From: Orobanche coerulescens
Lineage: Eukaryota > Streptophyta > Magnoliopsida > Lamiales > Orobanchaceae
NCBI GenBank assembly: GCA_033398695.1
Contig: CM065816.1
Location: 133,521,358 to 133,585,357, forward strand
DNA: 64,000 bases
Reading direction: 5' to 3'
Shown here: piece after piece, positions 18,973 to 64,000 of the stretch
Layout: each line of letters opens with the position of its first letter
How positions within the stretch are numbered: position 1 is the stretch's first letter
Notes under the pieces: model-generated
Seen by the model: the letters and a program-made list of their open reading frames with translations, nothing else
The model's database searches: none
Told to the model about the DNA's origin: nothing
Made by a program: the position numbers and the translations under genes

Positions 18973-19360
18973 TTAACAAGTCAAGAGTGGAAAGGGACAA
19001 TTTGCACGAACATGTCCCTGACGATTGCAGTTGAAGCACCCTCCCTTCTTACCGAGAGTCACCGATGCTGGCTTGGGATTCCAAGCGCTCACTCCTGATC
19101 GCGAAGACGACGCGTTCGAACGACGTTGGGGTTTGGGAGCCTTAGGCTCTTCACCGCCCAAAAACTTCCCAGATATCCTCGGTCTCTTGGCTTCGCTCGT
19201 GGGCTCGACCACTGAGGAGATTTCATAGGATATCGATTGATCTAGATACTCCTTCACCGTAGCATGGATCGTGGTCGTACGAACCACCTTGCCGCTTCCA
19301 TTTCCATCATCACGTCCACGTCCGCCGAGGCTTGACATACTAATACGGATAACACCGATC
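18973..19360 (-). pseudogene. Gag C-terminal remnant with one CCHC knuckle (E)
   Basis: The minus-strand frame carries a basic, proline- and serine-rich tail (KRPRISGKF, PKPQRRSNASSSRSG) followed by a zinc knuckle CFNCNRQGHVRANC, typical of the nucleocapsid end of Ty3/gypsy gag. The matrix and capsid parts upstream are not recognisable, and no protease follows. Frame residues before about 19360 look unrelated. This remnant is the sole coding evidence that the element derives from a gag-pol retrotransposon. Confidence 0.7.
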
Positions 19361-20397
19361 AACAGTATTAGTTTATCAGTCATACAATATACCACAATTA
19401 TCAACCCGAGTTTTAGTTAGCATCCTTAGAATAACGGTACTATCGTAAAGCATAAAGTTTTATGAAGTCAATTTCGAGTTCCTCGATGAGGACGGTCATT
19501 ATATGTATGCACTTAATGAAAACAAATTTTTGAAAAAGAGGGCTAGTCACGTTGCGCCCAAGGCTTGTAAATACTGTCTTTTATTTCGGAAGAGGAAGTT
19601 TACATAATGACTCTAAAAATTATATTCGAGTGATGAATAAAAGAAAAAAAAAAAAGGAAATCGAAAATTAATTCGTAACTAATTTGAAATATTTCGAAAA
19701 TGTTGAGTCCCAAATATCAAAATTTTGAAAATCTTTCCTCTTCTTCAAAAATGTTTATTCGAAAGAATTCTCCACCGAGATACGTGACCATTTAACATGA
19801 CGATATTAAATCATGGCTTCACACAATGTTAGGAAATTTCAAAGCATCACTTTAAAATATTCGAGATACTACAGCGTCGTGGGTCCCGTGCCGGAACCCA
19901 CCAGGCTAAAAATCATTTTAAAAAAAAATGATCAAAACGCCAAAAAGGCCGAAGTCGGTAATATTCTCAAATACTCACAAAAGTCATTTATAAAACATCA
20001 AATACCGTCATAAGAATACTATCAAAACATGCAAGACCAAAATATCAAAACTCGGTTTGCAAGATAATAAAAGCCATCTTAAAATACTCATGTGGTGGAT
20101 AAAATTGTCGTTCGTAAATTCATTCTAATAAAGTACCGAAATAGATAAACATGTTCGACTTCCATGTAATATCCTAAAACGATAATATCACCAACAAGTT
20201 CCAATTCCTAGTTCACATTAAGCATATTAGCACAATGTAATCAAATACGTGTATAAGGGGACTTACGATCGGGAGGCTTACCATCACGGATTGCCGGAAG
20301 ATGATGTCGGAACCACGATACTAATCACAACTCTGATGCGCGCGACTTACACAAGACATGGACTTGACCCAACGGCCTAGGTTTTTCGCAAACCTAA
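19361..20397 (-). other. E internal leader region without coding signal
   Basis: Between the primer site and the gag remnant no conserved frame is visible. The first 150 bases after the primer site match the start of the G internal region (57520-57670), which confirms that the two families are related. Confidence 0.55.
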
Positions 20398-20409
20398 GCT
20401 CCGATACCA
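20398..20409 (-). other. Primer-binding site of E (initiator Met tRNA)
   Basis: The minus strand reads TGGTATCGGAGC four bases inside the 5' LTR end at 20414. Confidence 0.82.
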
Positions 20410-20413
20410 TAAA

Positions 20414-23400: not shown

Positions 23401-23744
23401 TCCCTAAATTTCTAGGAAGTTACAAAAACGGCCCAAACATCCGAAAATCACGATACAACGTCGGATTAACAAATCCGAAACTCACAACATGTTCTACTCA
23501 ATCATACGAACTCATGGAAGTAAGAAAATGGCGAAATCGAACGAGTTTAACGAGAATCAAATGCACATGAGACAAAATATAACACAAGATTAAATTACGT
23601 AAAAACATCATCGAGACCCGTCTAAGCGGAGAAACTCCAAGAACAAAATAGGTTCGGAATTCCAAAACAGTGTCAAGCGAGTTGTCGAAACGGACCTCCG
23701 CCGGAAAATGAAAATTACCGGAAATCGAATTTGCGGGTATTACA
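20414..23744 (-). repeat. 5' LTR of element E
   Basis: In plus orientation it starts TGTAACACCC and ends GGGTATTACA. It is followed by GCAAC, the target duplication. It carries the same palindromic words as the other copy. Confidence 0.93.
22931..23250 (-). promoter_or_regulatory. Paired CCGCGG palindrome array (E, 5' LTR)
   Basis: CCGCGG cores start at 22935, 22956, 23009, 23030, 23053, 23104, 23124, 23148, 23169, 23219 and 23240. Pair spacing is 21 bp (22935/22956, 23009/23030, 23148/23169, 23219/23240) or 20 bp (23104/23124). In element orientation CTGTAC stands 12 bases before the core at 23058 and at 23174. A GAGAGA tract follows the array on the element strand, near 22852. Confidence 0.82.
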
Positions 23745-27151: not shown

Positions 27152-28104
27152 TGTTGGGAAAAATACCGAAAATAGTCACGTCACAATGAAAAATGCGGAA
27201 CCTCGTTTGACAATTTTCCAATCTTCAATTGTAACTTCGTGATTACTGATGAGTAGAGCACACAATTACAACTCGACAAAAATAATACAAATGATATACC
27301 AAAAGCGATAAATAACGAGACACAATTTTAGCGTGGAAAACCCCTCAAGACGAGAGTAAAAAGCACGGGACCGAAGCCGCTTAAATCCACTATCACCAAT
27401 ACACAATACACGATTCGTCCCTAATACAAACTAAGGGTATACATCAATAATCTTCAAATGCTTGGTAATAAACAATCTTCAAGTATTTGGAATATACAAT
27501 AACAACAAGATCGAGAAAAGAAAACACCATAAATAGATTACACAAAAAGCTAATGAAATACCCGAACTTCCGGACTCAAAACCTCGATCTACTCTGGTGA
27601 AAAGATTTGCCCAATAGTTACCAAGCTCTTGTCAAAATATCACGACGATCCGACCGATGAATCTCCGGGAAATTGAAGAAATATATTTCTCTCTCTTGTT
27701 TCTCTCTCTTTGTTGCTCTCAAAAATTGGTGAAGGAATGAAGAAAAAACCGCAGAAAAATCTGCCTAAAAAGAAACCCAAGTGCTGGGTTGACCCTGTGT
27801 GCCTAGGCGCATACATTGCGTGCCTAGGCACACTAAAAAAAATGGCAAAAAAGTCCCAGGGGGCCTAGGCACATAAGGGCTACGCCTAGGCGCAGAGTAC
27901 AGTGAGTTCCAGGGGGCCTAGGCACAGACACGGAGTACAGTAGGGTCCAGCGATTTATAGCTCATCAGTAGGGGGCCGCGGCCCGGAATACAGTGGTAGG
28001 AGTTCTCGGCCAAAAAATAGTGTGCCGTGTCCCGGATGGTTTGTGCCGCGGCCCGGAGTCTAGTCGACCCCGAGAAGGCCTATATTTCGGAAATAACTCC
28101 TACA
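27152..28104 (-). repeat. 3' LTR of copia A
   Basis: In plus orientation TGTTGGGAAAA...AACTCCTACA. It matches 49700-50679 but has lost two of the ten palindromic words by small deletions near 27925 and 27990. Minus-strand TATA box CTATAAAT at 27953-27960. Confidence 0.93.
27802..28056 (-). promoter_or_regulatory. Paired CCTAGG / CCGCGG words around the TATA box (A, 3' LTR)
   Basis: CCTAGG cores at 27802/27823 and 27864/27885 (both 21 bp apart) and 27917 (partner deleted). CCGCGG-type cores at 27976 (partner deleted) and 28025/28046 (21 bp). The TATA box at 27953-27960 separates the two word types: CCGCGG words upstream, CCTAGG words downstream in element orientation. Confidence 0.8.
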
Positions 28105-30190: not shown

Positions 30191-31241
30191 TGATGGAGGT
30201 AGATCGGAATATGCGCTGTGTTGCAAAAGTGTGAATATAAGGTGCAGAAATTAAATGGCACAAGGATTTATAGAAGTTCGGATATAATCGAGCCTACGTC
30301 CTCTCTGGGTATCTTTTTCTATAGGTTGAAGATAAAAACCTCTGCACCTCTCTTCTATCGGTCGAGGGATAACCGTTACAATCACGTCTTCTATTGGTCC
30401 GTGATAAACCACTCATACTTGTCTTTGTGTCGGTCCAAGTTAAATCCTTTTCCTTTTCTATCGGACAAGTAATCAACCGCTCTAGCTTTCTATTGGTACT
30501 AGATAAACCTCACTAAGATAGCGATTGCGATTCTAATAATGCTGGATCCTTGATCCTAATAACACCGAATCCAATCGTATCTTTTCTTTTACCTCTCGTG
30601 CATGTGTTGAATCTATAAACACTCAAACTAACAATATAAACTCAATATCACAACAACAATAATATCAATATGAATATCTGATCAATGAGTTGTTTGCTTG
30701 AAGTTTTTGTATGGAATAATACCAAGGATATGGTATTTATAGGCTCCAAAGCCTTACTAGCCGTTAGCCTCCTGACACTCCATTACGGCCGCTATCTTCT
30801 TCACATTACGTACGCTACTGACATTACGTACATTAACCTCACATGTTTACGTACGTTAGCTTAGTCCAGTTTCAGTCCAGCAACATTTCTTTATTTCTTT
30901 ACATACATTATCAACAATCCATTATGTACGTTAAGCTTACATCATTGCTGATGTTATATATCCGTTGCCGCCTTTTTGACTTTGACTCTTCCCAACGTTC
31001 TTCTCGTTTGAACTCTGAAATACATCTTTACGTACGCTAACCATCATCTCTTACGTATGCTTAGTGGCTCACATTACGTATATTATATTACTTATGTTAC
31101 GTACGTTAAGCTTGCATAAATCCAGATTTTTGCACTTCGTTTCCTTCGATGCTTTGCTTCGTCTTTTTGTTGTTTTGTTTTGTGTAACAACTTAATCATA
31201 AAAACATTATTAAAGCATGTATGGAACAGAATGTTCCAACA
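30191..31241 (-). repeat. 3' LTR of element B
   Basis: Plus orientation TGATGGAGGTAGATCGG...ATGTTCCAACA, that is TGTTGGAA...CCATCA on the element strand. Same length as 46664-47714. Its words (near 30806, 30824, 30847, 30921, 31031, 31053, 31099) are more decayed than in the other LTR. Minus-strand TATA box near 30737-30746. Confidence 0.92.
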
Positions 31242-32016: not shown

Positions 32017-32981
32017 TGTTGTTACCCAAAATATTATCCGAAGATAGTATTGCTGGAATGATTGAGTAACAAATAAATGCGAGAACACTTCCGTGAGAAA
32101 ATAGATAACACAAGATTTGCCGGGGTTGTTAATCCCGGGCTTGAATGCTTTCGCGAGATGATATTAATAAATATACTGTCGAGTACAAATATTAATGTTA
32201 GAATCTATTACAATGAGTGTAAAGACTTCTAGTTATCTAGGCTGTAGAGCGCGTAGATTGCCGGAAGAACCAGATACGTAAATCTGTGAGTTCTTGCTTG
32301 GGATGTATGATAAGTGTCTATGAATATCACTATGAATGTATAAGTGGTTGCCATATGAGTCTTTGATTCTCTTTCTGTGTGTATTTTGCACTGTATTCAC
32401 GGTAAAATCGCGTCTTCTTTGGCCACTGCAGTGAGTTCTCTATTTATAGGGGACAAGGTAGTTGGGACCTCTCAGGCGATCGCGGGCGACCGCCATTTTC
32501 TATATTATAATAAGATGGCCGATCGTCCCGTCACGTGGGGCTGTTCCCTTAAAGTCTGGGGTCGCTGCTTGTGGCCAGCTGTGCGAGCCAATTGGAAGCC
32601 AGCACGCGTCCTGGGTCGCTGTCCGGGGAGGACCCATTTTGTACCTTTCGGCGGCCCTGTCGGTAGGTGTGGTAGGTGACAGGCTGGGGTCAAAGGTCCT
32701 ATCTGTCGGCGCCCTTTGAAGATCCGCACGTGGGCCACCGTCCAAGATTCGGCCTTCGACGACTTTGATGGATGTTGGATCCATACGTGGTACGAGACGA
32801 TCGCCTCTGGTTCGCTCATTAAAGACGATCGCCAGATATCAAAAGACGATCGATGGGTACCAAAAGACGGTCGCCGTATTGTGCCGATCGCTGGGCATTT
32901 GCCCAGAGTATGTCTTTTATGGTTGGCTTCTCTGATCGTGATGCCGATCGCCTTTCGAGGCGTATTAATCGCCGCACAACA
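32017..32981 (-). repeat. 3' LTR of the Tat element
   Basis: Matches 44395-45348. Minus-strand TATA box CTATAAATA at 32441-32449. GATCG-containing palindromic words lie on the upstream side (32477-32950). Differences from the other LTR concentrate at 32560-32670 in CTGG/CCGG-like runs. Confidence 0.93.
32477..32950 (-). promoter_or_regulatory. CGATCG word array upstream of the TATA box (Tat LTR)
   Basis: GACGATCGCC-like words have CGATCG cores at 32477, 32520, 32798, 32826, 32847, 32868 (CGGTCG), 32885 and 32945. The run 32826/32847/32868 has exact 21-bp steps, as does 45193/45214/45235 in the other LTR. GATCG is also frequent in the rest of this element, so part of the array may reflect element-wide word bias. 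Confidence 0.6.
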
Positions 32982-33478: not shown

Positions 33479-36400
33479 ATGTCGGGAGGATCCAAAACCT
33501 TTGAGACCGGAAGTTCTTCCGCCGACACGGCTTCGCCTGACCGGGAGGAGATTCCCGTTGGAGTTGACATGGAAACGGCCGTTGAGGCTATTCGTGCGGG
33601 GATTACACCCGCAGAACTCGAAGAGCTTTTCAATGAGGCCGCAGTGGCGAGGATGGCGGCGAGGCGGAGCAGGGGGGCTCGCCGGCGGATGAGGACGAAC
33701 TGGAGTGGCTAACTTGGGAACGGCAGAGTGTATTTGGCCCCGCCTATATGGCTTTTGCCAAGATTATGGAGGGGATCGCCGGACCCTGTCCGGAATTTGA
33801 CTTCGAAGCCTACTCCGCCGCTCACCCTTATGAACATGTGAAATGGACGGTGTTTCGGGCCGCCGACCCGTCTCAGTGGACCCTTGGTAAGATCCGGAGT
33901 TCGGCGACCCGGAAATACGTGAACTGCTGGAGGGCAAAATATCATATTCCCTCTGACGTCTCCCTGCACGTGCCACCGGAAAATGAACGTGCCGATCAAC
34001 CGCCCGAGGGAATGGTCGTCGTTAGTGAGATGATCATGGAGGCCGGTCTGCGATTCCCTTTCCCATTCGCTGTCTCCTACCTGTTGATCGCCTGGAATTT
34101 GGCGCTGCTCCAACTGACGCCGAATGCTTGGCTACAGGTCATCTGCACTTTGACACTTTTTGGCGGTCACCGGTTGTTTCGCCTCCTTTCTGCGATGGAG
34201 ATGAACTATTTGTTTAAACTGGCTGCGCAGAAAGGGTCGATCGGCGGTAATCATATCCAGGGCCGAATGGGAAGAGTGGTCCTCGATGTGCCGAACAAAT
34301 CCTGGGGCGATCTGGCGAAATGGTGCTGGGTCGGCGGAGCGTGGCGATCGGCATCGAGTGACAGGCCGGAGGAGGAGTTGGATATTCCTACCAATTTTCG
34401 GGAGAGGAATCCGAGTAAGGATTTTAACTCTCCCTTTGATCGAGCTTATCTTGGACTGATCTAATTTCGTTTTCTGTTTGCAGGACCTCTCGTTCCAGCG
34501 ATCAGCGATCTCTCTTTCGATTTCTTGATCGTTTGGGAGTGGATTCGTGCCTTGCCGGATTCCTTCATTGACGTTCGCTCGCTTGGTAACGAACTTCATT
34601 GGTTGGGGACTCGATTATTTCGCTTCCCTCGTCACTTGAAAGTTCCAGGTATGAGCTGAAGTGGTGCTTCCTTGCTTGACGATTGCCTCCAGGAGGTCGT
34701 AGCGTTTAAGTAGTTGTCTAACTTGTTTGTATTTCTTCTTTGACAGAGACTCATTTTCCCCTCTTTACCGAGCCACCACCAGAGATTGCCATGTCTAACC
34801 CAGGACTCATCGGTCGCCTTCACCTAGGTAAGAAGACCGGTCGCGTTCCTGCGACGACGTCTCGCCCTGCTCCGGTGGTGAGGCCTGCTGAGGTGCCGGT
34901 CGCCGAGCCGATAGTTCAGGAAGAGGAACAACTTCAGCGCCGCAAGAGGCGGAGGCCGGGGGAGTCCCTGCCGATTACTGAGGCGGATGTGTCCATTCTT
35001 GAGCCTTCAGTTGATGCGGCTCCTATTTCTGCCATCCCGATGACGGAGGGATCAGGCCCTAGGCCCTCGGCGTCCGGCTCCCGGTCATCGGGCGGCCCCA
35101 TGAAGAAGGTGGCGATCGCTGAGGCGGAAACCTCTCGGGGCAAGCCTTATTTTGGCCGCGATCCCGAGCTGGTCAACAGGTAAGAAAGGATCGAAATTTC
35201 CGAGTTAGGCATTTTGAGTGAGATATAGACTAAGGGGCTGTTTACTTTTTTTCCATTAATACCTGAATGGATTAAGCTGTCTGAGTGGATTAATATGTCT
35301 GATTTGAAAAAATATCCTGCTGTTTCTTTCTTTTCTGAATGAACTATCTGAATGACAGAAATGACCATTTTACCCCTCAATATGAATTAAGTCCTTTTTA
35401 ATAAAGGACAGATTGAGCATTTTAGTTTATATAATCAATTTAAATTATATGACATAATATTTATTTTAATTTATATTATAATATATATTTATAAATCTTA
35501 TTATAATTTTCAGATATATTTAAATAATCAGACAATATTTTTATAAATACATTAAGTTATATTTTAATATATATAGTTATATTATTTTTTTAATGGTCAA
35601 TATAAAAAATCAATTTAAATAATATAACATAATATATATTTTAATTTATATTATAATATATATTCATAAATTACATTATAATTTTCAGATATATTTAAAT
35701 AATTAGACAATAGTTTTATAAATATATTAAGTTATATTTTAATATATGGTTATATTATTTTTTTAATAGTCAATATAAAAATCAATTTATATAATATAAA
35801 ATAATATATATTTTAATTTATATTATAATATATATTCATAAATCATATTATAATTTTTAGGTATATGTAAATAATCGACAATATTTTTATAAATATATTA
35901 AGTTATATTTTATTATATATAGTTATATTAATTTTTTTAATAGTCAATATAAAAATTCAATTTATATAATATAAAATAATATATATTTTAATTTATATTA
36001 TAATATATTTATATTCATAAATCATATTATAATTTTCGTGTATATTTAAATAATCAGACAATATATTTATAAGTATATTAAGTTATATTTTAATATATAT
36101 ATATATATAGTTATATTAATTTTTTTATCAATAAATAGCTTATATTTTATGAATTTTAAATGTATAATATTAATATATATTTTAAATTTATACTATATAT
36201 ACTCAATTATAATTAAGATTATATGATAATTTATACTATATATACTCAATTCTTTTATTATTAAAGAGGGTAATTTTGGTATATTGGGAAAGTATTTCTG
36301 TCTTAATGATAAGGACACCCCAAAAGTTGCTTAATGAAAAAGACATTATTAAGATCATTAAGTAGAAAGTAAACAGCAAAATATAGCTGATCGATTAAGC

Positions 36401-44394: not shown

Positions 44395-45348
44395 TGTTGT
44401 TACCCACAATATTATCCAAAGATAGTATTGTTGGAATGATCGAGTAACAAACAAATGCGAGAAAACTTCCGTGAGAAAATAGATAACACAAGATTTGCCG
44501 GGGTTGTTAATCCCGGGCTTGAATGCTCTCGCGAGATGATATTAATAAATATACTGTCGAGTACAAATATTAATGTTAGAATCTATTACAATGAGTGTAA
44601 AGACTTCTAGTTATCTAGGCTGTAGAGCGCGTAGATTGCCGGAAGAACCAGATATGTAAATCTGTGAGTTCTTGCTTGGGATGTATGAAAAGTGTCTATG
44701 AATATCACTATGAATGTATAAGTGGTTGCCATATGAGTCTTTGATTCTCTTTCTGTGTGTATTTTGCACTGTATTCACGGTAAAATCGCGTCTTCTTTGG
44801 CCACTGCAGTGAGTTCTCTATTTATAGGGGACAAGGTAGTTGGGACCTCTCAGGCGATCGCGGGCGACCGCCGTTTTCTATATTATAATAAGATGGCCGA
44901 TCGTCCCGTCACGTGGGGCTGTTCCCTTAAAGTCTGGGCCGCTGTGGCTACAGGCGAGCCAATGGGAAGCCAAGACGCGTCTGGTCGCTGTCCGGGAGGA
45001 CCCATTTTGTACTTTCGGCGGCCCCGCTTGTAGGTGTGGTAGGTGACAGGCTGGGGTCAAAGGTCCTATCTGTCGGCGCCCTTTGAAGATCCGCACGTGG
45101 GCCACCGTCCAAGATTCAGTCTTCGACGACTTTGACGGATGTTGGATCCATACGTGGCACGAGACGATCGCCTCTGGTTCGCTCATTAAAGACGATCGCC
45201 AGATATCAAAATACGATTGCTGGGTACCAAAAGACGGTCGTCGTATTGTGCCGATCGCTGGGCGTTTGCCCAGAGTATGTCTTCTATGGTTGGCTTCTCT
45301 GATCGTGATGCCGATCGGCTTTCGAGGCGTATTAATCGCCGCACAACA
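44395..45348 (-). repeat. 5' LTR of the Tat element
   Basis: Partner of 32017-32981, with minus-strand TATA box at 44817-44826 and CGATCG words at 45165, 45193, 45214 (decayed to CGATTG) and 45235. Outer edge ACAACA followed by CACAC. Confidence 0.93.
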
Positions 45349-46663: not shown

Positions 46664-47714
46664 TGATGGAGGTAGATCGGAATATGCGCCGTGTTGCAAA
46701 AGCGTGAATATAAGGTGCGGAAATTAAACGACACAAGGATTTATAGAGGTTCGGCTATAATCGAGCCTACGTCCTCTCTCGGTATCTTTTTCTATAGGTT
46801 GAAGATAAAAACCTCTGCACCTCTCTTCTATCGGTCGAGGGATAACCGTTACAATCACGTCTTCTATTGGCCCGTGATAAACCACTCGTACTTGTCTTTA
46901 TGTCGGTCCAAGTTAAACTGTTTTCCTTTTCTATCGGACAAGGAATCAACCGCTCTAGCTTTCTATCGGAACTAGATAAACCTCACTAAGATAGTGATTG
47001 CAATTCTAATAATGCCGGATCCTTGATCCTAATAACACTGAATCTAATCGTATTTTTTCTTTTACCTCTCGTGTATGTGTTGAATGTATAAACACTCAAA
47101 CTAACAATATAAGTTCAATATCACAACAACAATAATATCAATATGAATATCTGATCAATGAGTTGTTTGCTTGAAGTTGTTGTATGGAATAATACCAAGG
47201 ATATGGTATTTATAGGCTCCAAAGCCTTACTAGCCGTTAGCCTCCTGACACTCCATTACGGCCGTTATCTTCTTCACATTACGTACGCTACTGACATTAC
47301 GTACGTTAACCTCACATGTTTACGTACGTTAGCTTAGTCCAGTTTCAATCCAGTAACATTTGTTTCTTTCTTTACGTACGTTATCAACAATCCATTACGT
47401 ACGTTAAGCTTATGTCATTGCTGATGTCATATATCCATTGCCGCCTTTTTGACTTTGACTCTTCCCAACGTTCTTCTCATTTGAACTCTGAAACACATCT
47501 TTACGTACGCTAACCATCATCTCTTACGTATGCTAAGTGGCTCACATTACGTACGTTATATAACTTATGTTACATACGTTAAGCTTGCATAAATCCAGAT
47601 TTTTGCACTTCGTTTCCTTCGATGCTTTGCTTCGTCTTTTTGTTGTTTTGTTTTGTGTAACAACTTAATCATAAAAATATTATTAAAGCATGTATGAAAC
47701 AAAATGTTCCAACA
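46664..47714 (-). repeat. 5' LTR of element B
   Basis: Partner of 30191-31241. Minus-strand TATA box in CCTATAAATACC near 47207-47218. TTACGTACGTTA words lie directly upstream at 47279-47580. Confidence 0.93.
47279..47582 (-). promoter_or_regulatory. TTACGTACGTTA word array at 23-bp period (B, 5' LTR)
   Basis: TTACGTACG-type words start at 47279, 47297, 47320, 47372, 47395, 47501, 47524, 47547 and 47570. Steps of exactly 23 bp occur for 47297/47320, 47372/47395 and three times in a row from 47501 to 47570. Position relative to the TATA box equals that of D's array, but the word differs. Confidence 0.78.
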
Positions 47715-49640
47715 TTTACCGCTCCACACTTTATCCGGGACATCAAACTCCAAAGGAACACCCGGCGTCAAATTAATCACATGAACCGCCGTGTTCAAAG
47801 CTTCTCCCCGAAATGACTTTGGCAATCCGGCATGTGAGAGCAAACATCGAGCTCTCTCGACTAAAGTCCGGTTCATCCTCTTTGCCAATCCATTGAGTTT
47901 CGGAGTCTTCGGGGGCGTCTTTTGATGTCGGATCCCTTGCTCTCGGCAATATTCATCAAAGGGCCCGGTGTATTCTCCACCATTGTCCATCCGAATACAC
48001 TTTAGCTTCTTCCCGGTCTCTCTTTCCACGGAGGCATGAAATTGTTTGAAAACATCTAACACTTGATCTTTGGTCTTCAAGGTGTATGCCCACACCTTTC
48101 TCGAGTGATCGTCGATGAATGTGACAAAGTATCGGCAACCACCAAGCGTCCTAGTCTTCATAGGACCACAAACATCGGAATGAACAAGATCAAGAACATT
48201 TTCCTTCCCCGAAGGAGTATGACTCTTAAAAGTGACTCTCATTTGCTTCCCGTCTAGACAATGAGAGCATCTTTTAAGGTGTACCTTGTGAACCCCGGAT
48301 AACGCCTCCTTCTTCGAAAATAGTGCCATTCCTTTCTCACTCATGTGACCGAGCCTCTTATGCCATAGCTCGGCCATGTCATTATTGTCGATTTTGTTCA
48401 CGGAATTAATCGTGACCTTTGGAAGTGTCATGTACAATTTCCCTTCCTTTTCTCCTCTCCCGACAATCAAGGAACCTCGAGTGAGTTTCCACACTCCCTT
48501 GCCAAAACCACTATGATAACCATCATCATCGAGTAAACCAATGGACATAACATTAAGCCTCATGTCCGTACCATGTTTTACATCCTGTAAAACAAGTTCC
48601 ACACCGGTGTCGAATCTCAAATGAACATCTCCCACTCCAACAATTTTGGATAGCCCATCGTTACCCATCTTGACTATACCATAGTCACCCGGAGTATAAT
48701 AGGAATAAAAATCTCTACGTGATGTAACATGACACGTAGCTCCACTATCGCCCACCCAACTCGAATCATCTCTCGCAAGGTTCACCATATCATAATCACA
48801 ACAAACAAAGAATTCTTCGGTAGTAGTATTTACTTCGGTTTTATCATTACCACCGCTCTCCTTTTTTTGTGAATTCTCTCGGCCTTGGCGATTTTCCTTC
48901 TTCAATTGTCGGCAAAATTTCTTTGTATGACCTTTCTTACCACAATGGTAACATTTAATATTGGCATACTTCCCCCGGGAATTACTCCTTTGTGGCCCTC
49001 TATTACTCGGGCCTCTACTTTGAGCTCTCCCCTGTCTTTCGGTAACTAGAACATCCGATTGTGACGAAGATCCCTGTGCTTTTCTTCGGACCTCCTCGTT
49101 CAACATGTTCCCGTTAGCTAGTTCCATCGAAATGACACGATCGGGGGCAGAGTTAGACAACGATGTTCGAAACGTCTCCCAAGAATCCGGCAATGTGCCC
49201 AATAACCACAAAGTTTGCACCTCCTCTTTGAATTTAATGCCCATTCCCGCAAGTTGATTAATTATGCCTTGGAATGCATTCAAGTGATCTGACAGAGGAG
49301 TCCCGTCTCGATATTTCAAATTCATCATTTGTTTAATGAGGAACAACTTATTATTCCCCGTCTTTCGAGCATACAATTGCTCGAGCTTGTGCCATAATTC
49401 TCGAGCATCCTTCTCTCCACTAATATGGTTCAAAACATTGTCATCAACCCATTGTCGAATATACCCGCAAACTTGGCGATGCAAAATAGTCCACTCCGCG
49501 TCGCACTTGCCTTCCAGTTTATCTATGCTAAAAACCGGTAAATAATAATCCTTCACATATAGAAGGTCTTCCATCTTCCCCTTCCATACGTGGTAGTTCG
49601 AACCATTCAAGTTTACCATTCTACTCGTGTTGGCTTCCAT
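47715..49640 (-). pseudogene. Copia A gag, protease, integrase N-part
   Basis: ATG at 49640 (MEANTSRMVNLNGSNYHVW). The frame is open for 642 codons to the B insertion. Order: copia gag core (residues about 10-200), CCHC knuckle CYHCGKKGHTKKFC (about 230), protease DSGATCHV (about 297), GAG-pre-integrase zinc region (LWHKRLGHMSEKG...CSHCLDGKQ, about 425-470), and integrase core with LVHSDVCGPM and RMDNGGEYTGPF. At the third acidic position the text reads NGLAKRMNRT where the family has E (NG-AERMNRT), so Lys replaces the catalytic Glu. The remainder is at 28080-30185. Confidence 0.92.
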
Positions 49641-49684
49641 CTTACAATTGAGATAATAAACACCATGAAACAACAATTCCCGTG

Positions 49685-49696
49685 GCTCCGATACCA
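49685..49696 (-). other. Primer-binding site of copia A (initiator Met tRNA)
   Basis: The minus strand reads TGGTATCGGAGC, three bases inside the LTR end at 49700. Confidence 0.85.
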
Positions 49697-49699
49697 CTT

Positions 49700-50679
49700 T
49701 GTTGGGAAAAACACCGACAATAGTCACGTCATAATGAAAAATATGGAACCTCGTTTGACAATTTCCCAATCTTCAATTGTAACTTCGTGGTTACCGACGG
49801 GTAGAGCACACAATTACAACTCGACAAAAATAATACAAATGATATACCAAAAACGATAAATAACGAGACACGATTTTAGCGTGGAAAAGCCCTCAAGATG
49901 AGAGTAAATACTACGGGACCGAAGCCGCTTAAATCCACTATCACCAATATACAATACACGATTCGTCCCTAATACAAACTAAGAGTATACACCAATAATC
50001 TTCAAATACTTGGTAATAATCAACCTTCAAGTATTTGGAATACACAATAACAACAAGATCGAGAAAAGAAAACACCGTAAATAGCTTACACAAAAAGCTA
50101 ACGAAATACCCAAACTTCCGGACTCAAAACCTCGATCTACTTCGGTGAAAAGATTTTTCCAATAGCTACCAAGCTCTTGTCAAAATATCACGACGATCCG
50201 ATCGATGAATCTCCGGGAAATTGAAGAAATGTATTTCTCTCTCTTGTTTCTCTCTTTGTTGCTCTCAAAAATTGGTGAAGGAATGAAGAAAAAACCACAT
50301 ATGCCTAAAAAGAAACCCAAGTGGGTTGACCCTGTGTGCCTAGGCGCAGACATTGCGTGCCTAGGCACACTCAAAAAAAAATGGCAAAAAAGTCCCAGGG
50401 GGCCTAGGCACATAAGGACTACACCTAGGCGCAGAGTACAGTGACTTCCAAGGGGCTTAGGCACAGAAGGGCTGCGTCTAGGCACGGAGTACAATAGGGT
50501 CCAGCGATTTGTAGCTCATCAGCAGGGGGTCGCGGCCCGGCGGGCTTGGGCCGCGGCCCTGAGTACAGTGGCTGGACTTCTCGGCCAAAAAATAGTGTGT
50601 TGCGGCCCGGATGATTTGTGTCGCGGCCCGGAGTCCAATCGACCCCGGGAAGGCCTATATTTCGGAAATAACTCCTACA
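49700..50679 (-). repeat. 5' LTR of copia A
   Basis: TGTTGGGAAAA...CTCCTACA in plus orientation, followed by CCCAT. The TATA region that reads CTATAAAT in the other LTR is CTACAAAT here (near 50504-50512). All ten palindromic words are still recognisable. Confidence 0.93.
50339..50625 (-). promoter_or_regulatory. Five palindrome pairs at exact 21-bp spacing (A, 5' LTR)
   Basis: Word cores start at 50339/50360 (CCTAGG), 50403/50424 (CCTAGG), 50456/50477 (CTTAGG, TCTAGG), 50530/50551 (TCGCGG, CCGCGG) and 50599/50620 (TTGCGG, TCGCGG). Every pair is 21 bp apart. On the element strand ACTGTAC or ATTGTAC starts 13 bases before the core of 50424-50429, 50477-50482 and 50551-50556. Confidence 0.85.
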
Positions 50680-54779: not shown

Positions 54780-57503
54780 TGTAATATCCGCAATTTCGAA
54801 TTTCGGTAATTTTCTTTTTTTGGTGTATTTCTCGATCGAAGTGACCCTCGTGTACCTTTCAGTGTGTCCTTCCTGTCAACTGTTGAACTGTATTCTCGTC
54901 ATTGTTGTGCGGAACCGCCGTTTCGGGGTTGCCGTGGATCCATTTCGTGTTATTGGTTCCCAAATATTGATTCCTATCGTTTTATTCTCTTTCCGGATCA
55001 TTTTTATCATTTTGGGACCCAGAAGGGGTGTGGGCCGCGGCACAAGGTGTGTGCGCCGCGGCACACAAATTTCTCCAGTCGATGGTCGAGCGAACTGTAC
55101 TGTGTGCCGCGGCACACCCATCCGGTGCCGCGGCACAGTGCCGAGTCAGTGCCGCGGCACACCCGTCCGGTGCCGCGGCACACCCGTGTGACACCTGCGA
55201 CCAAAACCCGACTGTACCGGGTGCCGCGGCACACGCAGGCCGTGCCGCGGCACACTGCCGAAACCTGGGAGTAAATTTTTGGCCTGTGCCGCGGCACACT
55301 TCAGCTGTGCCGCGGCACACAATGCGGTCAATCCCCTATATTGTGTCGTTTTGAGCGTCCGCTGCTCATTTCTTCTTTCTTCTTCCTGCATCGCGAGAGA
55401 GAGGGAGAGAGAGGGAGAGAGTTCTTCATCAATATTCATTGGGGGGGTTGATTTTCATCATTTTTCTTCGGTAGTGAAGCCCGGACGATCAATCTAACGC
55501 GTGTTCTACGGATCTTAGTACTTGAATCTCCAAAGGTAATATCTCTAGAACCCTATTTTCGATTAATTTGGGGGTTTTGGGATTTTCTTCCGATTCGTTC
55601 CGTTTTGTTGGTGGATTCATGGTGTATACGATTAATATTGTTAGTATCTTTAGTTTTCCTACGGATTCATGGATATTTTGTGGATTTTTACGGAATCGAG
55701 AGGGTTTGGTTGTGGTCCGCCCTCGTTGTTATTTTTGGTACGAATATACATGAATCGTAGGCGGGTTTCCGGGTGTATTCCATTTCCGTAATCGTCTAGA
55801 GTTGGTTGTGATTGTGTTATTCGAATCGTTAGGTTCGATTCCGTTGATTCCTAGTGTTCGTCGGTGATTATCCTTTCCGTTCGTTGTCGTCTTCCTTTTC
55901 GATGACATCGGGCGTTTCGTAGCTTCCCAGTTGAGCCGTGTTCGTCGGACTACTTGCGTGCCGATTTCGAGGCAAGTACCTTGTCCATACTATTCCTGTT
56001 TTGAGGATATGATAATTGGTGATCGCCTTGGTGTGTTGTTTATTTGTTTGAAATGAGTTTTCAAAAGATTTCGGTTCGGCCTCGTTAAAGGCTTTCTTTC
56101 AAAATGCGTGTGTGTTTTGTGAACGGCGTGTTTTGGGAATTGATTATGATTCAATTATTTTGAACGTTGAAGGATTTAATGATGATACTCCTATTGTTTA
56201 AAGTTATGGAATCGTGTATTCCGTATTTAATCTTTTTATTGTGTTTTGAAGTGTTTGATAATGGTGTCGAGTTAATGGCCATCTCTAGTGAGTATTCTTA
56301 ATGAACTTACATTCTTAGCATGTTAGTTTTGCATGAGTATTGTGTTTGTGTGTGTATGCTCACTACGGGTTAGATCCGACGGGGTCTCGGTAGGGCTCCA
56401 CGAAGCTGTGGAACCGCGAGCTTGCTTTTAACCACTGTGGGTTAGATCCGACGGGGTCTCGGCAGGGATCCACGAAGCTGTGGGTCCGCGGTTAATTGTG
56501 GTGCATTTTTACAAATGTGATTTGATATTGGCATTTCCGGAAATGAGTGCTTTTGAACGGTTTTCATGATTGCATGCATTGACTAAGTGTGTAAGAGGTA
56601 AGTTGTTCGTTTGGCCTACTTGGCTAGGATGGCTATAGAGTATTTTGTTGTTTGTGTTAAATCCTTTAATTGTGGATTTTGATGTTGGGAGAGGAACCTT
56701 GTGGTCGTTCTTGTATACTGTGAGTTGATGAGATTGGGGCTAAAATCCCAACGGTTTTGTAAAGATCATTTTACGGATTTGGGGCTAAAATCCCAACGGT
56801 TTGGTAAAGGTTATTTTACGGAAAGTAAACTTTTGGGGCGGTGACCCCTTTTGTCTTTTGGATTTTGAAAAGTAGGATTTGATAATCCTAAATTATTTCC
56901 TATTAAAACTCTCGATGGCATTCTAAACCGTTTTATAAATTATTTCCATTGATTTATGATATTTCGATTTTGAAAGGTTTTCTCAAACTCTTGCCTCGGG
57001 AAGTACTTTTCGTTTCGTTTGGATCTTTGAGGATTCCTGATTATTGTTATTCGTGGAATGTGAATTGTATGGCTCGTATTTTTGCACTTGTACTTGCACT
57101 AGCAAAACAGTGGAGTTTTGCTAACCCCCGAGTACTCGGGGGGTGGATGTCTATTTTTGCATTCAGGTTTTGGAGCATAGCACAGGGTCGGCACGAAGGA
57201 TGATGAAAGATGAACGATACTAATCACACGAGGATCCGTTGATGTCGGATTGGTCTAGCTGTATTTTCTTTTCCGCTGTAGTATGTTTTCCCCGATGTAC
57301 GGGAGTTTATTGTATTTTGACCCCTGCGTGGGTATGTGTTTGGAATTGAGTTGTAAGTAATTATTGAAAGACCAAGTCGGTCTACTGAGTCATTTTAGCC
57401 TTAAAGGCGATGTCTAGATGTTTGATTTAGTTATCAGCCTGGTAGATCCTCGAGGGGAGGGTCTACGGCGTGTAATATCCCTGAGCGGATTGGGGGTGTT
57501 ACA
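54780..57503 (+). repeat. First LTR of element G
   Basis: TGTAATATCCGC...GGGGTGTTACA. Contains the CCGCGG word array (55030-55322), a GAGA-rich tract (55393-55420), a 72-bp tandem pair (56361 and 56433) containing a GGATCCAC-GAAGCT-GTGGGTCC-like inverted repeat, and a 45-bp pair with GGGGCTAAAATCCC (56736, 56781). Confidence 0.93.
55030..55322 (+). promoter_or_regulatory. Five palindrome pairs at exact 21-bp spacing (G, first LTR)
   Basis: CCGCGG cores at 55035/55056, 55107/55128, 55152/55173, 55224/55245 and 55289/55310, each 21 bp apart, mostly as TGTGCCGCGGCACA. Pair-to-pair distances are 72, 45, 72 and 65. ACTGTAC starts 13 bases before the cores at 55107 and 55224. A TATA-like CCTATATTG (55333) and GAGAGAG follow. 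Confidence 0.88.
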
Positions 57504-60113
57504 TAAATGGTATCAGAGCTTAGGTTGAGGAAACCTAGGCTGTCGGGTCAAGTCGTGTTGTTTGAGTCTTGTTTCATCGGATTTTATCTGACTGAGTCGT
57601 GTCGCGACGCGTCGTTTGAGTTTGTTGGTCGTGATTAGTATCGTGGGGCGATCATCATCTTCGTGCGACCTGTGGAAGTAAGTCTCCCTTCTTTGTGTTG
57701 TGCCTCGTGTGACACGAGCTATTTTTATGATTGTTTGTTAAGTGATGGAATCCTTATGTGGATTTTGATTTCACGATATGTATTTAATCGACTCTCATAT
57801 TTGATTTATACGAGGAGTGTCGTCGCTTGTGATGTCTTTTTATTGTTGTTTTTGTCCGTTGCTGATGATTTTCGAATCGATTTGTACGTTTTACAAGTTC
57901 TCTTGTGGAAGCTTTATGCTTATACGCGTTCGACTTGTTCATTAGCCAGGGCGTGAGGGTCCTTAGAGGCCTCGAATGGGGCCAGTGGTTTTGTTCTGAA
58001 TGTGGTTATTTGACTCTAACATTTTGTTCTTATGAGGAGTAGTGTTGCTGGATTGTGCATGATGAACTGTATTCTTTTTATCCGCTGCGTGAGTTCTTTT
58101 GTAGTGACTTTCGGTATTTTACCGACCGAGTTTTATTTCGAAAACCGATTCCCTTAACCGAGTTTTTGGCATTATGGCCTTGATCGCGTTGGCGAAATTC
58201 TTATGATGGTATTTAGCATTTTGTAAATGGCTTCTGTGAGATTTTGAAATATTACCGTCATCAGCCTTTTTGGCATTTTTGTAAATGGTTTTTAGCCTGG
58301 GGTTCCGATGCGGGACCCACAGCGCTAGGATGTTCCGTGTGATTACCTGAAATTTTTGAGCATTCTAGCCTTTTTGGCATCGTCCTTTTGGCATTGAATT
58401 ATTTTCGAAAACTTGGATATCTTAGAAATAAATTTCGAGACATTTTTTTTCAAATGAGTTATTTTCTCGTGGTACATCCAGGTGCCACAATATATTTCAA
58501 AATTTTTCTGCCTCGAGGACCAAAATGTTTTGAGATATTTTCAATGTTTTAGAGACACTTTTATTTAGACCCGAGGGTCGAATATTCTGAAAGTTTTCGC
58601 TAAGAGAAAGTGTCCTCATTTTTATCAAATGCGAAATGGTTCTCCAAAGTCTCGATAACGATGTTTCACGTTTGTACTTTTTGAAAGGTGATACTCAAGA
58701 TCAATCGGTGTTCTTCTAAATTATTATTAAAATGAGGTTTTCGTTTTTAAAACCTATCCATTCCCGTTTGAGGGCTGGGTATATATGTATGATGTTCGCG
58801 TTGTCATTTTGCTGTTTGCTCCCGAGTATGACCGAATTGGCGGTGTGAGCGTTGAGTCGTTTTCCACACATTTGTTGTGTTAGCCCCTTGTGAGAGGTGG
58901 GATGTTGGTGTTGAATATTGTCGCCTCGTGGTGATTTCTGCGTTGTCGCGCATGTGCGAGCTGTTAGAGCTTGGGTTGGTATGGCCGTGTGCATCGGTGA
59001 TCGTTCCGTTATGTGTCGGTTGTTTAATGTCTTGTTACCTTGATCCTGTTTTTGTGAATTTCGTGGATGAGGTCGGAGGTAATACCCGAACTATTTTGAC
59101 TTCCGTATCTTCTCTTTCTCCAGTCTATCGATTCGCTCATGTTCGTTGATACTTTATGAACTTGTTCTGTATTTCGGTTTCATCGTCCGAACGAACTGCG
59201 ATCTTGTTATGGGTCGATCTGGTTATCGCCGTGACTTTTCGGGTTCGGTTCGACTCTTGTGAACCTTGTTCGGGAGTGACATCATCTGGTTCTATTAGTT
59301 CTTTTATTCGAAGTGGATCGGATTTGGAACTCTTGTGTTTTCGACTTTGTCGACTCATCATGTTCATTGACATTTTCCGAGCTTGTCCCGCCCCTTGCTT
59401 TTGTTGATCGAACGAGGGTGGTATTATTTCGGAATTACTCGTTCGTCGTTGTGACCTTTCAATCGTTGTTCCCTTTCCTGTGGATCTTATGCGAGTGTGC
59501 ATCTTGTTGTTTTCACCGGATCATGTTTTGTCTCGAGTCGAGATGTGAACCTCGGAGTTGTCGGTTGAACCTTATTGTTCTTCGTGATCCGAACATGATC
59601 GTTCGATTTTTGTTGTCTCGATCTTTGTGGTTCGATCGTTTGATTGTTCGGTTTTTGTTGATCTCGTTTCGTGATTGTTGAACATTCAGACTCCTTCGAA
59701 ATTTCCTTAAGTTCAGGAAATTAGTCTAGTTTTAGATCTTCCAACCCTTGGGCGGTGGAATTCCGTATTTGTTCGGCGTGTGGCTCATGTTTTGATTGAT
59801 ATACCGTTGGGTTGGTCAATCGTATTGATTTTCGTTGGTTGTGTTTTGTGATTGTTCGGATAATCGACTTGATTGTATTATCTGTTTGATGACACTTGTC
59901 ACTTGTTGATTTTATTATGTCTCTACCGTGGCATTGTGTTGGTCGCCCCTGGAGCGTGTTTTCACGCCGTTTATTCCTTTGCGTTGTTTGTAACGTTTCG
60001 CCGATGGGCGTAAGTTACGCATTTCTTGTGTATCTCGTTGAGTTTTCTGGCGGGATATTGCTTCTCCTACTTGTTTTAAGTTTCGGACGAAACTTCTTTT
60101 AAGGAGGGTAGAA
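57504..60113 (+). other. Internal region of G, noncoding
   Basis: Primer site TGGTATCAGAGC at 57508-57519 (perfect initiator-Met pattern) and polypurine tract AAGGAGGGTAGAA at 60101-60113 are intact. Between them I see no gag zinc knuckle, protease, RT or integrase in any frame. The first 150 bases match element E. The layout is that of a LARD-type non-autonomous element. Confidence 0.75.
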
Positions 60114-62789
60114 TGTAATATCCGCAATTTCAATTCGGTAATTTTCTTTTTTGGTGTATTTCTCGATCAAGTGACCTCGTGTACCTTTCAAAGGTGTCCT
60201 TCCACAACCGTTGAACCGTATTCTCGTTATTGTTGTGCGGAACCGCCGTTTGGGTTGCCGTGGATCCATTTCGTGTTATTGGTTCCCAAATATTGATTCC
60301 TATCGTTTTATTCTCTTCCGGATCATTTTTATCATTTTGGGACCCGGAAGGGGTGTGGGCGCGGCACAAGGTGTGTGCGCCATGCACACAAATTTCTCCG
60401 GTCGATGGTCGAGCGATCAGTCTTGTGCCGCGGCACACCCATCCGTGCCGCGCACAAGCGTCGAAGTCGCGCGGCACACCGTCCCGTGCCGCGGCACACC
60501 CGTGTGACACTGCGACCAAAACCCGATCAGGTGCCGCGGCACACGCAGCCGTGGCCGCTGCACACCGCCGAAACACAGGAGTAAATTTTTGGCCTGTGCC
60601 GCGGCACACAATGCGGTCAACCCCCTATCTTGTGGCGTTTTGAGCGTCCACTGCTCAATTCTTATTTCTTCTTCCGGGCTCGCGAGAGAGAGTGAGAGAG
60701 AGGGGGAGAGTTCTTCATCAATATTCATTGGGGGGGGTTGATTTTCATCATTTTTCTTCGGTAGTGAAGCCCGGACGATCAATCTAACGCGTGTTCTACG
60801 GATCTTAGTACTTGAATCTCCAAAGGTAATATCTCTAGAACCCTATTTTCGATTAATTTGGGGGTTTTGGGATTTTCTTCCGATTCGTTCCGTTTTGTTG
60901 GTGGATTCATGGTGTATACGATTAATATTGTTAGTGTCTTTAGTTTTCCTACGGATTCATGGATATTTTGTGGATTTTTACGGAATCGAGAGGGTTTGGT
61001 TGTGGTCCGCCCTCGTTGTTATTTTTGGTACGAATATACATGAATCGTAGGCGGGTTTCTGGGTGTATTCCATTTCCGTAATCGTCTAGAGTTGGTTGTG
61101 ATTGTGTTATTCGAATCGTTACGTTCGATTCCGTTGATTCCTAGTGTTCGTCGGTGATTATCCTTTCCGTTCGTTGTCGTCTTCCTTTTCGATGACATCG
61201 GGCGTTTCGTAGCTTCCCAGTTGAGCCGTGTTCTTCGGACTACTTGCGTGCCGATTTCGAGGCAAGTACCTTGTCCATACTATTCCTGTTTTGAGGATAT
61301 GATAATTGGTGATCGCCTTGGTGTGTTGTTTATTTGTTTGAAATGAGTTTTCAAAAGATTTCGGTTCGGCCTCGTTAAAGGCTTTCTTTCAAAATGCGTG
61401 TGTGTTTTGTGAACGGCGTGTTTTGGGAATTGACTATGATTCAATTATTTTGAACGTTGAAGGATTTAATGATGATACTCCTATTGTTTAAAGTTATGGA
61501 ATCGTGTATTCCGCATTTAATCTTGTTATTGTGTTTTGAAGAGTTTGATAATGGTGTCGAGTTAATGGCCATCTCTAGTGAGTATTCTTAATGAACTTAC
61601 ATTCTTAGCATGTTAGTTTTGCATGAGTATTGTGTGTGTGTATGCTCACTACGGGTTAGATCCGACGGGGTCTCGGTAGGGCTCCACGAAGCTGTGGAAC
61701 CGCGAGCTTGCTTTTAACCACTGTGGGTTAGATCCGACGGGGTCTCGGCAGGGATCCACGAAGCTGTGGGTCCGCGGTTAATTGTGGTGCATTTTTACAA
61801 ATGTGATTTGATATTGGCATTTCCGGAAATGAGTGCTTTTGAACGGTTTTCATGATTGCATGCATTGACTAAGTGTGTAAGAGGTAAGTTGTTCGTTTGG
61901 CCTACTTGGCTAGGATGGCTATAGAGTATTTTGTTGTTTGTGTTAAATCCTTTAATTGTGGATTTTGATGTTGGGAGACGAACCTTGTGGTCGTTCTTGT
62001 ATACTGTGAGTTGATGAGATTGGGGCTAAAATCCCAACGGTTTTGTAAAGATCATTTTACGGATTTGGGGCTAAAATCCCAACGGTTTGGTAAAGGTTAT
62101 TTTACGGAAAGTAAACTTTTGGGGCGGTGACCCCTTTTGTCTTTTGGATTTTGAAAAGTAGGATTTGATAATCCTAAATTATTTCCTATTAAAACTCTCG
62201 ATGGCATTCTAAACCGTTTTATAAATTATTTCCATTGATTTATGATATTTCGATTTTGAAAGGTTTTCTCAAACTCTTGCCTCGGGAAGTACTTTTCGTT
62301 TCGTTTGGATCTTTGAGGATTCCTGATTATTGTTATTCGTGGAATGTGAATTGTATGGCTCGTATTTTTGCACTTGTACTTGCACTAGCAAAACAGTGGA
62401 GTTTTGCTAACCCCCGAGTACTCGGGGGGTGGATGTCTATTTTTGCATTCAGGTTTTGGAGCATAGCACAGGGTCGGCACGAAGGATGATGAAAGATGAA
62501 CGATACTAATCACACGAGGATCCGTTGATGTCGGATTGGTCTAGCCGTATTTTCTTTTCATTTGTAGTATGTTTTCCCGATGTACGGGAGTTTATTGTAT
62601 TTTGACCCCTGCGTGGGTATGTGTTTGGAATTGAGTTGTAAGTAATTATTGAAAGACCAAGTCGGTCTCATCGAGTCATTTTAGCCTTAAAGGCGATGTC
62701 TAGATGTTTGATTTAGTTATCAGCCTGGTAGATCCTCGAGGGGAGGGTCTACGGCGTGTAATATCCCTGAGCGGATTGGGGGTGTTACA
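60114..62789 (+). repeat. Second LTR of element G
   Basis: Nearly identical to the first LTR from about 60700 to 62789, but the first 500 bases carry many small indels, mainly in C/G runs. Word cores at 60428/60448 (20), 60469/60489 (20) and 60534/60555 (21), plus 60599 single. Confidence 0.92.
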
Positions 62790-64000
62790 TAAATGGTATC
62801 AGAGCTTAGGTTGAGGAAACCTAGGTCGCCGGGTCAAGTCGTGTTGTTTGAGTCTTGTTTCATCGGATTTTATCTGACTGAGTCGTGTCGCGACGCGTCG
62901 TTTGAGTTTGTTGGTCGTGATTAGTATCGTGGGGCGATCATCATCTTCGTGCGACCTGTGGAAGTAAGTCTCCCTTCTTTGTGTTGTGCCTCGTGTGACA
63001 CGAGCTATTTTTATGATTGTTTGTTAAGTGATGGAATCCTTATGTGGATTTTGATTTCACGATATGTATTTAATCGACTCTCATATTTGATTTATACGAG
63101 GAGTGTCGTCGCTTGTGATGTCTTTTTATTGTTGTTTTTGTCCGTTGCTGATGATTTTCGAATCGATTTGTACGTTTTACAAGTTCTCTTGTGGAAGCTT
63201 TATGCTTATACGCGTTCGACTTGTTCATTAGCCAGGGCGTGAGGGTCCTTAGAGGCCTCGAATGGGGCCAGTGGTTTTGTTCTGAATGTGGTTATTTGAC
63301 TCTAACATTTTGTTCTTATGAGGAGTAGTGTTCTTTGGATTGTGCATGATGAACTGTATTCTTTTTATCCGCTGCGTGAGTTCTTTTGTAGTGACTTTCG
63401 GTATTTTACCGACCGAGTTTTATTTCGAAAACCGATTCCCTTAACCGAGTTTTTGGCATTATGGCCTTGATCGCGTTGGCGAAATTCTTATGATGGTATT
63501 TAGCATTTTGTAAATGGCTTCTGTGAGATTTTGAAATATTACCGTCATCGACCTTTTTGGCATTTTTGTAAATGGTTTTTAGCACAGGGGTTCGATCACG
63601 GGACCCACAGCGCTAGGATGTTCCGTGTGATTACGAAATTTTTGAGCATTCTAGCCTTTTTGGCATCGTCCTTTTGGCATTGAATTATTTTGAAAACTTG
63701 GATATCTTAGAAATAAATTTGAGACATTTTTTTCAAATGAGTTATTTTCTCGTGGTACATCCAGTGCCACAATATATTTCAAAATTTTTCGCCTCGAGGA
63801 CCAAAATGTTTTGAGATATTTTCAATGTTTTAGAGACACTTTTATTTAGACCCGAGGGTCGAATATTCTGAAAGTTTTCGCTAAGAGAAAGTGTCCTCAT
63901 TTTTATCAAATGCGAAATGGTTCTCCAAAGTCTCGATAACGATGTTTCACGTTTGTACTTTTTGAAAGGTGATACTCAAGATCAATCGGTGTTCTTCTAA
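62790..64000 (+). other. Second internal region of G (partial)
   Basis: Starts with the primer site at 62794-62805 and follows 57504-58717 with few differences up to the window end. Confidence 0.88.

Follow-up and report, generated by a model that had tools for sequence, protein, structure and literature searches.

The long terminal repeats (LTRs) of unrelated retrotransposons are usually their least alike parts. Sireviruses carry many copies of short dyad palindromes, the RM boxes, in the upper half of the LTR and upstream of the promoter; a regulatory role has been proposed for them, and they have been called Sirevirus-specific and absent from classic copia elements (Bousios et al., 2010; PMC2829016). 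The palindromes of maize Sirevirus LTRs have also been presented as hotspots of small RNAs (Bousios et al., 2016, as cited in PMC5311732). Long gypsy LTRs of the Del (Tekay) type have GC-rich, length-variable CpG islands near their 5' end, with none in the eudicot Del group (Cruz et al., 2014; PMC4029996), and the tandem repeats in the U3 of Tnt1 and of retroviruses are cis elements that act in transcription (PMC3601003). In the portions of the literature that were searched, we found no published description of the paired-word array reported below.

The window (the whole stretch of 64,000 nucleotides that was analysed) contains a copia element, copia A, which extends from 50679 to 27152 on the minus strand, has TG..CA ends, a primer binding site (PBS) and a polypurine tract (PPT), and is bordered on both flanks by a 5-bp duplication, ATGGG, read from the flanking sequence. 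The marks of the copia superfamily found in it are a copia gag, an integrase that precedes the reverse transcriptase (RT), and an LTR pair with PBS and PPT. Its features are as follows:

49700–50679, minus strand: 5' LTR of copia A, with ends TGTAGG..CAACA, PBS inside and flanking ATGGG; 89% BLAST match to the 3' LTR
27152–28104, minus strand: 3' LTR of copia A, partner of the 5' LTR, with two pairs each short of one word
49682–49696, minus strand: PBS of copia A, TGGTATCGGAGCCAC
47565–49769, minus strand: coding remnant with Retrotran_gag_2, Pol_BBD, gag_pre-integrase and integrase core
50600–50626, minus strand: pair 1 (in sense order), GC-type, 21 bp
50530–50556, minus strand: pair 2, GC-type, 21 bp
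50456–50482, minus strand: pair 3, TA-type, 21 bp
50403–50429, minus strand: pair 4, TA-type, 21 bp
50339–50365, minus strand: pair 5, TA-type, 21 bp
50563–50567, minus strand: TGTAC box, starting 11 bp ahead of the first word of pair 2
50489–50493, minus strand: TGTAC box ahead of pair 3
50436–50440, minus strand: TGTAC box ahead of pair 4
50326–50331, minus strand: GGTCAA closing the array; GGTCAA or GGTCAG stands at the equivalent place in the 5' LTR arrays of the elements G1 and G2 (see below)

We take the PBS to be akin to those for the initiator tRNA-Met, which it resembles. Copia A is interrupted by a copia-type LTR pair (30191–31241 and 46664–47714), which itself encloses another LTR pair (32017–32981 and 44395–45348) around gypsy-type ORFs for gag, RT, RNase H and integrase; an AT-rich tandem repeat of ∼ 175 bp, in roughly four copies, lies between these inner LTRs at 35433–36214.

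Because copia A is on the minus strand, its array lies near the start of U3, with the first core at LTR position 53 in the sense orientation; the sequence-only reading had taken the antisense strand. That reading listed ten words in five pairs, and the 21-bp spacing that it gave holds for all five. Half of the words are exact (CCTAGG at 50339, 50360, 50403 and 50424 and CCGCGG at 50551), while the remainder carry one or two changed bases: CTTAGG at 50456, TCTAGG at 50477, TCGCGG at 50530 and, in the pair that had been placed one base off at 50599/50620, TTGCGG at 50600 and TCGCGG at 50621. Assigned by nearest type, as the words are exact only in part, three pairs are of the TA-type and two of the GC-type, with partners alike, in agreement with the same reading. 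Exact pairs of one and the same word at 21 bp number 15 in the window, vs. none in 200 first-order Markov simulations. In the 3' LTR, two pairs are reduced by one word, leaving gaps of 21 and 15 bases. We found no clear TATA sequence directly past the copia A array.

Two other readings of the copia array were tried and rejected. With a GC content of 0.59 and a CpG observed/expected ratio of 0.69, against 1.29 in the rest of the LTR, it is not CpG-enriched relative to its own LTR, which speaks against a CpG island. A coding origin, with 21 bp representing seven codons, is at odds with the gaps of 49, 53, 32 and 43 between copia pairs, which are not multiples of three (three of the four gaps in G2 are). 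A protein search with one reading frame of the array had none of its 312 candidates scored, and a search of the window against Rfam at the gathering thresholds returned no match.

Of the 63 words found with at most two core mismatches, the 52 that have no more than one give the consensus G-N-GCC-(TA or GC)-GGC-A-C-A. The word is a dyad core plus direction, with asymmetric flanks: position −1 is near random (0.24 bit) whereas its dyad partner, position +8, carries 1.08 bit and is A in 41 of 52 words, and position +9 is C in 48 of 52. Eight exact words in the window follow a TGTAC within 5–29 bp, seven of them at an offset of 11. GTAC is the core bound by plant SBP/SPL proteins; TTGACC, also present in the array, resembles a W-box, and we regard it as a candidate for one.

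A search of the genome for this copia family gave 50 scored matches, of which two are the LTRs of the window itself and the other 48 fall in 38 places, all of which were fetched; with 40 of 671 candidates scored, there are at least 38 further copies. Family members that lack the words, or space them at random, had been named by the sequence-only reading as what would speak against it. They are absent from the fetched copies, which together contain 138 pairs at 21 bp, two to five in each, as compared with five successive-word intervals of 20 bp and seven of 22 bp. Over all loci, the corresponding numbers are 850 word pairs at 21, 44 at 20 and 22 at 22, a count in which both strands and overlapping loci enter repeatedly and many loci were chosen for the spacing of 21. 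The TGTAC box is found on 63 of the 138 copia pairs, the other 75 having none, and 74 of the 83 TGTACs in these copies have the next core at one fixed distance.

An alignment of the family (40 rows) showed frequent loss of one word together with one spacer, affecting pair 1 in eight rows and pair 2 in 12. Pair 5 is of the TA-type in 31 rows, in one of which a single word is left, and of the GC-type in eight, the remaining row (L048) being unaligned. In the eight GC-type rows the spacer has been replaced by another of equal length; the upstream flank is alike in these rows and the downstream flank in four of the eight. This pattern suggests that pair 5 changed its type when a unit reaching from centre to centre was exchanged, in some cases along with further downstream sequence, and not by compensating mutations.

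Among the 120 matches listed of 291, the closest partial matches of the copia A protein were in Orobanche hederae, at 85% and covering 48% of the query, and in O. minor, at 80% and covering 50%, one short match aside, and the best long ones were in Cuscuta epithymum and Tanacetum. The protein encoded at 47565–49769 is thus most like elements of the parasitic plants Orobanche and Cuscuta and of Asteraceae, among them Tanacetum and Helianthus, as far as the listed matches go, and either horizontal transfer between parasite and host or shared asterid ancestry is a possible source of this likeness.

Similar arrays are present in two gypsy-type elements of the window, G1 and G2:

22935–23245, minus strand: array in the 5' LTR of G1 (gypsy-type LTR at about 20415–23744)
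17325–17623, minus strand: decayed array in the 3' LTR of G1 (LTR at about 14787–18119)
55035–55315, plus strand: array in the 5' LTR of G2 (gypsy-type LTR from 54780), ten exact words in five 21-bp pairs
60359–60604, plus strand: decayed array in the 3' LTR of G2 (LTR from 60114)

In both G1 (14787–23744) and G2 (54780–64000), LTRs of 3.3–3.9 kb surround an almost coding-free interior of only 1.4–2.3 kb, so that these elements look non-autonomous. The coding sequence of G1 includes a zinc knuckle slightly under its cut-off, and the frames of G2 that were searched contain no domain; we take the PPT and LTR ends of the two elements to be Tekay-like in look. A search with the G1 gypsy gag fragment had none of its 35 candidates scored, and the fragment did not match the other gypsy element of the window (best E value 1.9). 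The G2 array has 6050 first-look candidates in the genome.

The sequence-only reading had stressed that an unrelated copia LTR has the same spacing and the same frame. The superfamilies do differ, and the recurrence is far beyond chance; the gypsy-type arrays, however, have more than the words in common with copia A. The three arrays have equal orientation and an equal location near the start of U3. In the 5' LTRs, TGTAC stands 11 bp ahead of a CC..GG word at three places in copia A and at two each in G1 and G2, TTTTTGGCC-like text lies between pairs, and GGTCAA or GGTCAG follows the last word; the 3' LTRs retain the TGTAC boxes only in part. In G1 and G2, the 5' LTR also has a TATA sequence, 26–28 bp beyond the point where the last core starts.

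Outside the words, too, the 5' LTR arrays resemble one another. When words were protected and spacers shuffled 500 times, the spacer similarity of the copia A 5' LTR to those of G1 and G2 (138 and 142.5) exceeded all 500 shuffles, whereas it was weak wherever a 3' LTR was compared, the six scores being reached by 42, 6, 2, 54, 1 and 9 of 500. Reverse-complement controls, which preserve words and spacing, scored lower in four of four comparisons: 133 vs. 88.5 and 142 vs. 73.5 for trimmed arrays of the copia A 5' LTR against those of the G1 and G2 5' LTRs, and 115 vs. 90 and 121 vs. 81 in the other two. By contrast, the native order of the five blocks ranked only 3rd, 9th, 11th and 16th among the 120 possible orders, and strictly masked local alignments between copia and gypsy-type arrays were unremarkable, reached by 10 to 135 of 300 shuffles. 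Thus, oriented sharing is established for the 5' LTRs, whereas it is not proven that the array descended as a whole. The block order, with its interchangeable middle blocks, and the masked alignments would also fit an independent gain of the same sites by copia and gypsy families, rewarded by one abundant set of host factors and without any exchange. We consider such convergence possible but rather unlikely, given the oriented similarity of spacers beyond the words and the common TGTAC offset, TTTTTGGCC-like inter-pair text and terminal GGTCA.

In the 3.65-Gb genome, the GC-type composite TGTAC-word-13-word (TGTACNNNGNGCCGCGGC-13-GCCGCGGC) has 16,955 + 16,828 = 33,783 exact matches and the TA-type composite with TGTACTC has 43, the reversed control giving none in either case. 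Of 30 fetched and partly overlapping GC-type loci, 25 fall into one large cluster and five into three small ones, and 27 have a BLAST match to the window at an E value of 1e-20 or better. Six downstream stretches were fetched and the ORFs of three of them searched, which revealed a copia gag and RT at one locus, a gypsy gag (Retrotrans_gag, L113) at another and no family at the third; among the other three stretches, two had no ORF of 130 codons and one had a single ORF of 132 codons. These are observations of adjacency: the array and the downstream coding sequence are on the same strand, about 1 kb apart. The paired-word layout is real, and its extent is far larger than the sequence-only reading had stated. 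Among viral and bacterial sequences, a GC-type pair was seen in two viral contigs, and searches of these collections with the other patterns and with the copia protein gave no confirmed match.

Such copy numbers in two superfamilies bear on two further explanations. The array might be a by-product of mutation: slippage in a variable region of the LTR could have amplified a GC-rich 21-bp tandem repeat that has no function. The common loss of words and spacers seen in the copia family would fit this, as would the 21-bp period that a tandem-repeat finder reports in G2, yet spacers differ among pairs while their length stays constant, and both the TGTAC offset and the direction of the words are fixed, which makes a by-product quite improbable. 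In retroviruses, dimer sites are palindromic contacts between two genomic RNAs. By analogy, the GC-rich palindromes, which are self-complementary and very abundant, might serve as kissing or duplex contacts in RNA dimerisation or packaging. We give this little credence, less than any other reading discussed here: the words are in U3, near the 3' end of the RNA, and the pairing at 21 bp, the TGTAC box and the direction of the words would be left unexplained.

A protein-bound enhancer best fits where the words lie, their direction, their helical spacing and the constant offset of TGTAC. We therefore favour, with moderate confidence, the view that the array is a modular U3 enhancer cassette, common to copia and gypsy elements, that binds host factors. 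Its paired words, two helix turns apart, look like one common docking platform for a host DNA-binding protein. The unit would be an oriented composite in which TGTAC (in some units) is followed, after about one helix turn, by GNGCC-(TA or GC)-GGCACA and, exactly two turns (21 bp) further, by the second word, and about five such units would stand in U3 upstream of the core promoter. Each dyad word may be occupied by a dimer of the host protein, the two dimers of a pair cooperating on the same face of the DNA, and TGTAC may be read by a second factor. Units would be lost, or swapped between pairs, in 21-bp steps, probably through strand switching at the near-identical words.

The cassette is most likely common to the superfamilies through descent, exchange or convergence; on the enhancer view, the copia and gypsy versions would have a common origin or have been exchanged. 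Template switching between elements has been described in Triticeae (PMC1950507) and exchange of LTRs within an insect ERV family (PMC12992720); both make exchange of the cassette plausible, although between superfamilies the step would be longer. More tentatively, and with somewhat less confidence than in the enhancer itself, we can imagine a genome-wide retrotransposon regulon, in which the same spacing-coded enhancer (TGTAC-11-word-21-word) would have been imposed on copia and gypsy families by one host regulatory input, or would have spread across them as one exchangeable cassette, in more than 33,000 exact copies. The near-identical words would then be the joints that allow 21-bp units to move from array to array and perhaps from one superfamily to the other.

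A different role for the words would follow if partners were kept complementary. The sequence-only reading held that both members of a pair use the same type and that this would preserve pairing between them. The first part is borne out by 191 of 195 distinct units (96 TA-TA and 95 GC-GC) and by 264 of 267 in a second count; the four units that are mixed by nearest type each have a mutated word. In the 19 units of the window, partners pair at one central position in 19 cases and at the other in 18, against 11.7 and 11.0 expected, a level reached by none of 1000 permutations, and this agreement is the same concordance of TA and GC types. Flank covariation was not detected in these units, with 137 paired cells vs. 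135 expected and 400 of 1000 permutations reaching the observed value.

On the structural reading, each pair would form a stem-loop with a stem of about 12 bp and a loop of 9 nt, in U3 RNA or in single-stranded DNA, and the conserved pairing would act either via small RNAs and silencing, as proposed for the maize Sirevirus LTR palindromes, or in RNA processing. The agreement of central bases between partners is in its favour, and single pairs can fold: good folds are predicted for copia pair 5 and for each of the five G2 pairs (z from −2.6 to −5.5), and whole arrays fold better than shuffles (z of −4.1 and −8.0). However, copia pairs 1 and 2 beat the shuffles only weakly (12 and 4 of 200 as good), pairs 3 and 4 fold no better than shuffles (124 and 36 of 200 as good), and the minimum-energy folds of whole arrays mostly join words from different pairs, copia pair 2 folding on itself. 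Folding ability follows automatically from the repetition of a self-palindromic word and so does not discriminate between the models. Exact mixed TA/GC pairs occur at 17 places genome-wide vs. four for the reversed pattern, and three couples of them have identical matches 15–34 kb apart, as the two LTRs of one element would, so that a mixed pair can probably pass through transposition.

Double variants, in which both words of a pair have changed, provide a further comparison. In L039, L040 and L046 and in an amplified family (e.g. G000:C1:888556), both words are no longer self-symmetric yet are mutually complementary, one such pair type being amplified genome-wide. Among 169 GC-GC units, with those selected by the exact composite left out, there are four complementary CpG-type doubles vs. 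0.9 expected (17 of 2000 permutations), two of the four being related copies. Genome-wide, the complementary double GCCGTGGC..GCCACGGC is found at 179 places (control 0) and GCCACGGC..GCCGTGGC at 328 (control 4), as compared with 324 places for the two non-complementary combinations together; the reversed-pattern control for the latter is high (147 + 162), probably because array words also yield the reversed letters, and is no background for the 324. As 24 of 50 listed places among the 328 have one spacer in common, the amplified family they represent was scaled out of the GCCACGGC..GCCGTGGC count. With the family included, the ratio of complementary to non-complementary doubles is 1.56 (507 vs. 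324; 1.36–1.80); without it, the ratio is 1.08 (about 350 vs. 324; 0.93–1.26), where 350 is an estimate scaled from listed places, with the family removed from the 328 count alone, the other two listings showing no similarly dominant spacer. Since most double variants probably reflect decay after insertion, this comparison is only weakly informative about selection on active copies. What evidence is left for a structural role comes foremost from the amplified family, whose words are complementary without being palindromic. Preservation of pairing between partners thus finds no support genome-wide, with no excess of complementary doubles outside that family, mixed pairs that persist in probable LTR couples and flanks without covariation, and we regard the stem-loop as an unlikely basis for the array.

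The window also contains a second paired-dyad system. Another group of copia LTRs (3170–4376 and 6373–7570, with relatives at 30191–31241 and 46664–47714) has a dyad word of its own, TTAGCG-YA-CGCTAA, in pairs 23–24 bp apart. With up to 4 mismatches of 14 allowed, there are five pairs in each of the LTRs at 3170–4376 and 6373–7570, three in the LTR at 46664 and none in that at 30191. Exact dyads with five-base arms that are repeated at 18–27 bp form 10 pairs in the window, all from the two word systems, whereas 30 Markov sequences contained none. With word lengths set at 14 and 12 bp, the edges of partner words are 9 bp apart in the two systems alike, and 10 where the spacing is 24. In the LTR at 3170, the centre is CA in 10 of 12 words, which would be a mismatch in any hairpin. 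The spacing of 23–24 bp in this group means that exact two-turn phasing is not universal, and a U3 with paired dyads may be a design in which the words are interchangeable.

If the enhancer reading is correct, promoter parts would be subject to selection or recombination across superfamilies, a single host factor might govern much of the transposon load of a 3.65-Gb genome, and insertions would scatter a ready-made binding platform through that genome. The paired-word cassette makes it possible to test whether retrotransposon promoters evolve by descent or by part-swapping.

Like the U3 repeats of Tnt1 and retroviruses, the array consists of tandem U3 elements; to our knowledge, those repeats are not known as one spaced cassette common to different superfamilies. 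With the Del CpG islands it shares a GC-rich, variable region near the 5' end of the LTR, although no words, pairs, spacing or link to copia are described for these islands in the relevant parts of the report (PMC4029996). The maize Sirevirus LTRs resemble the LTRs studied here in having a palindrome-rich, fast-evolving region; they are described as small-RNA hotspots, whereas the present array is known from its sequence, and the genome-wide counts did not show the covariation that a structural constraint would be expected to leave.

Of a Sirevirus RM array, at least eight dyad palindromes clustered upstream in the LTR would be expected, and copia A has 10 words (core with at most two mismatches) near the start of U3. 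The core of the RM boxes, CGG..CCG, differs from the GCC-(TA/GC)-GGC (CC..GG) of copia A, which thus lacks the RM signature, and the section that describes them (PMC2829016) gives no pairing or fixed spacing, in contrast to the TGTAC box and 21-bp pairs of copia A. Copia A also lacks the multiple PPT copies ahead of the 3' LTR and the AT/TG attachment site of Sireviruses, having seven purine runs of at least 9 in ∼ 2 kb upstream, one of them with GGGGG, and the junction GAGATT/TG. Unlike the RM boxes, as far as these have been described in the sections cited, the array is found in a copia element without the Sirevirus marks tested and beside gypsy coding sequence. Even though two tested marks fail, the RM boxes of Sireviruses are the nearest described counterpart of the paired-word array.
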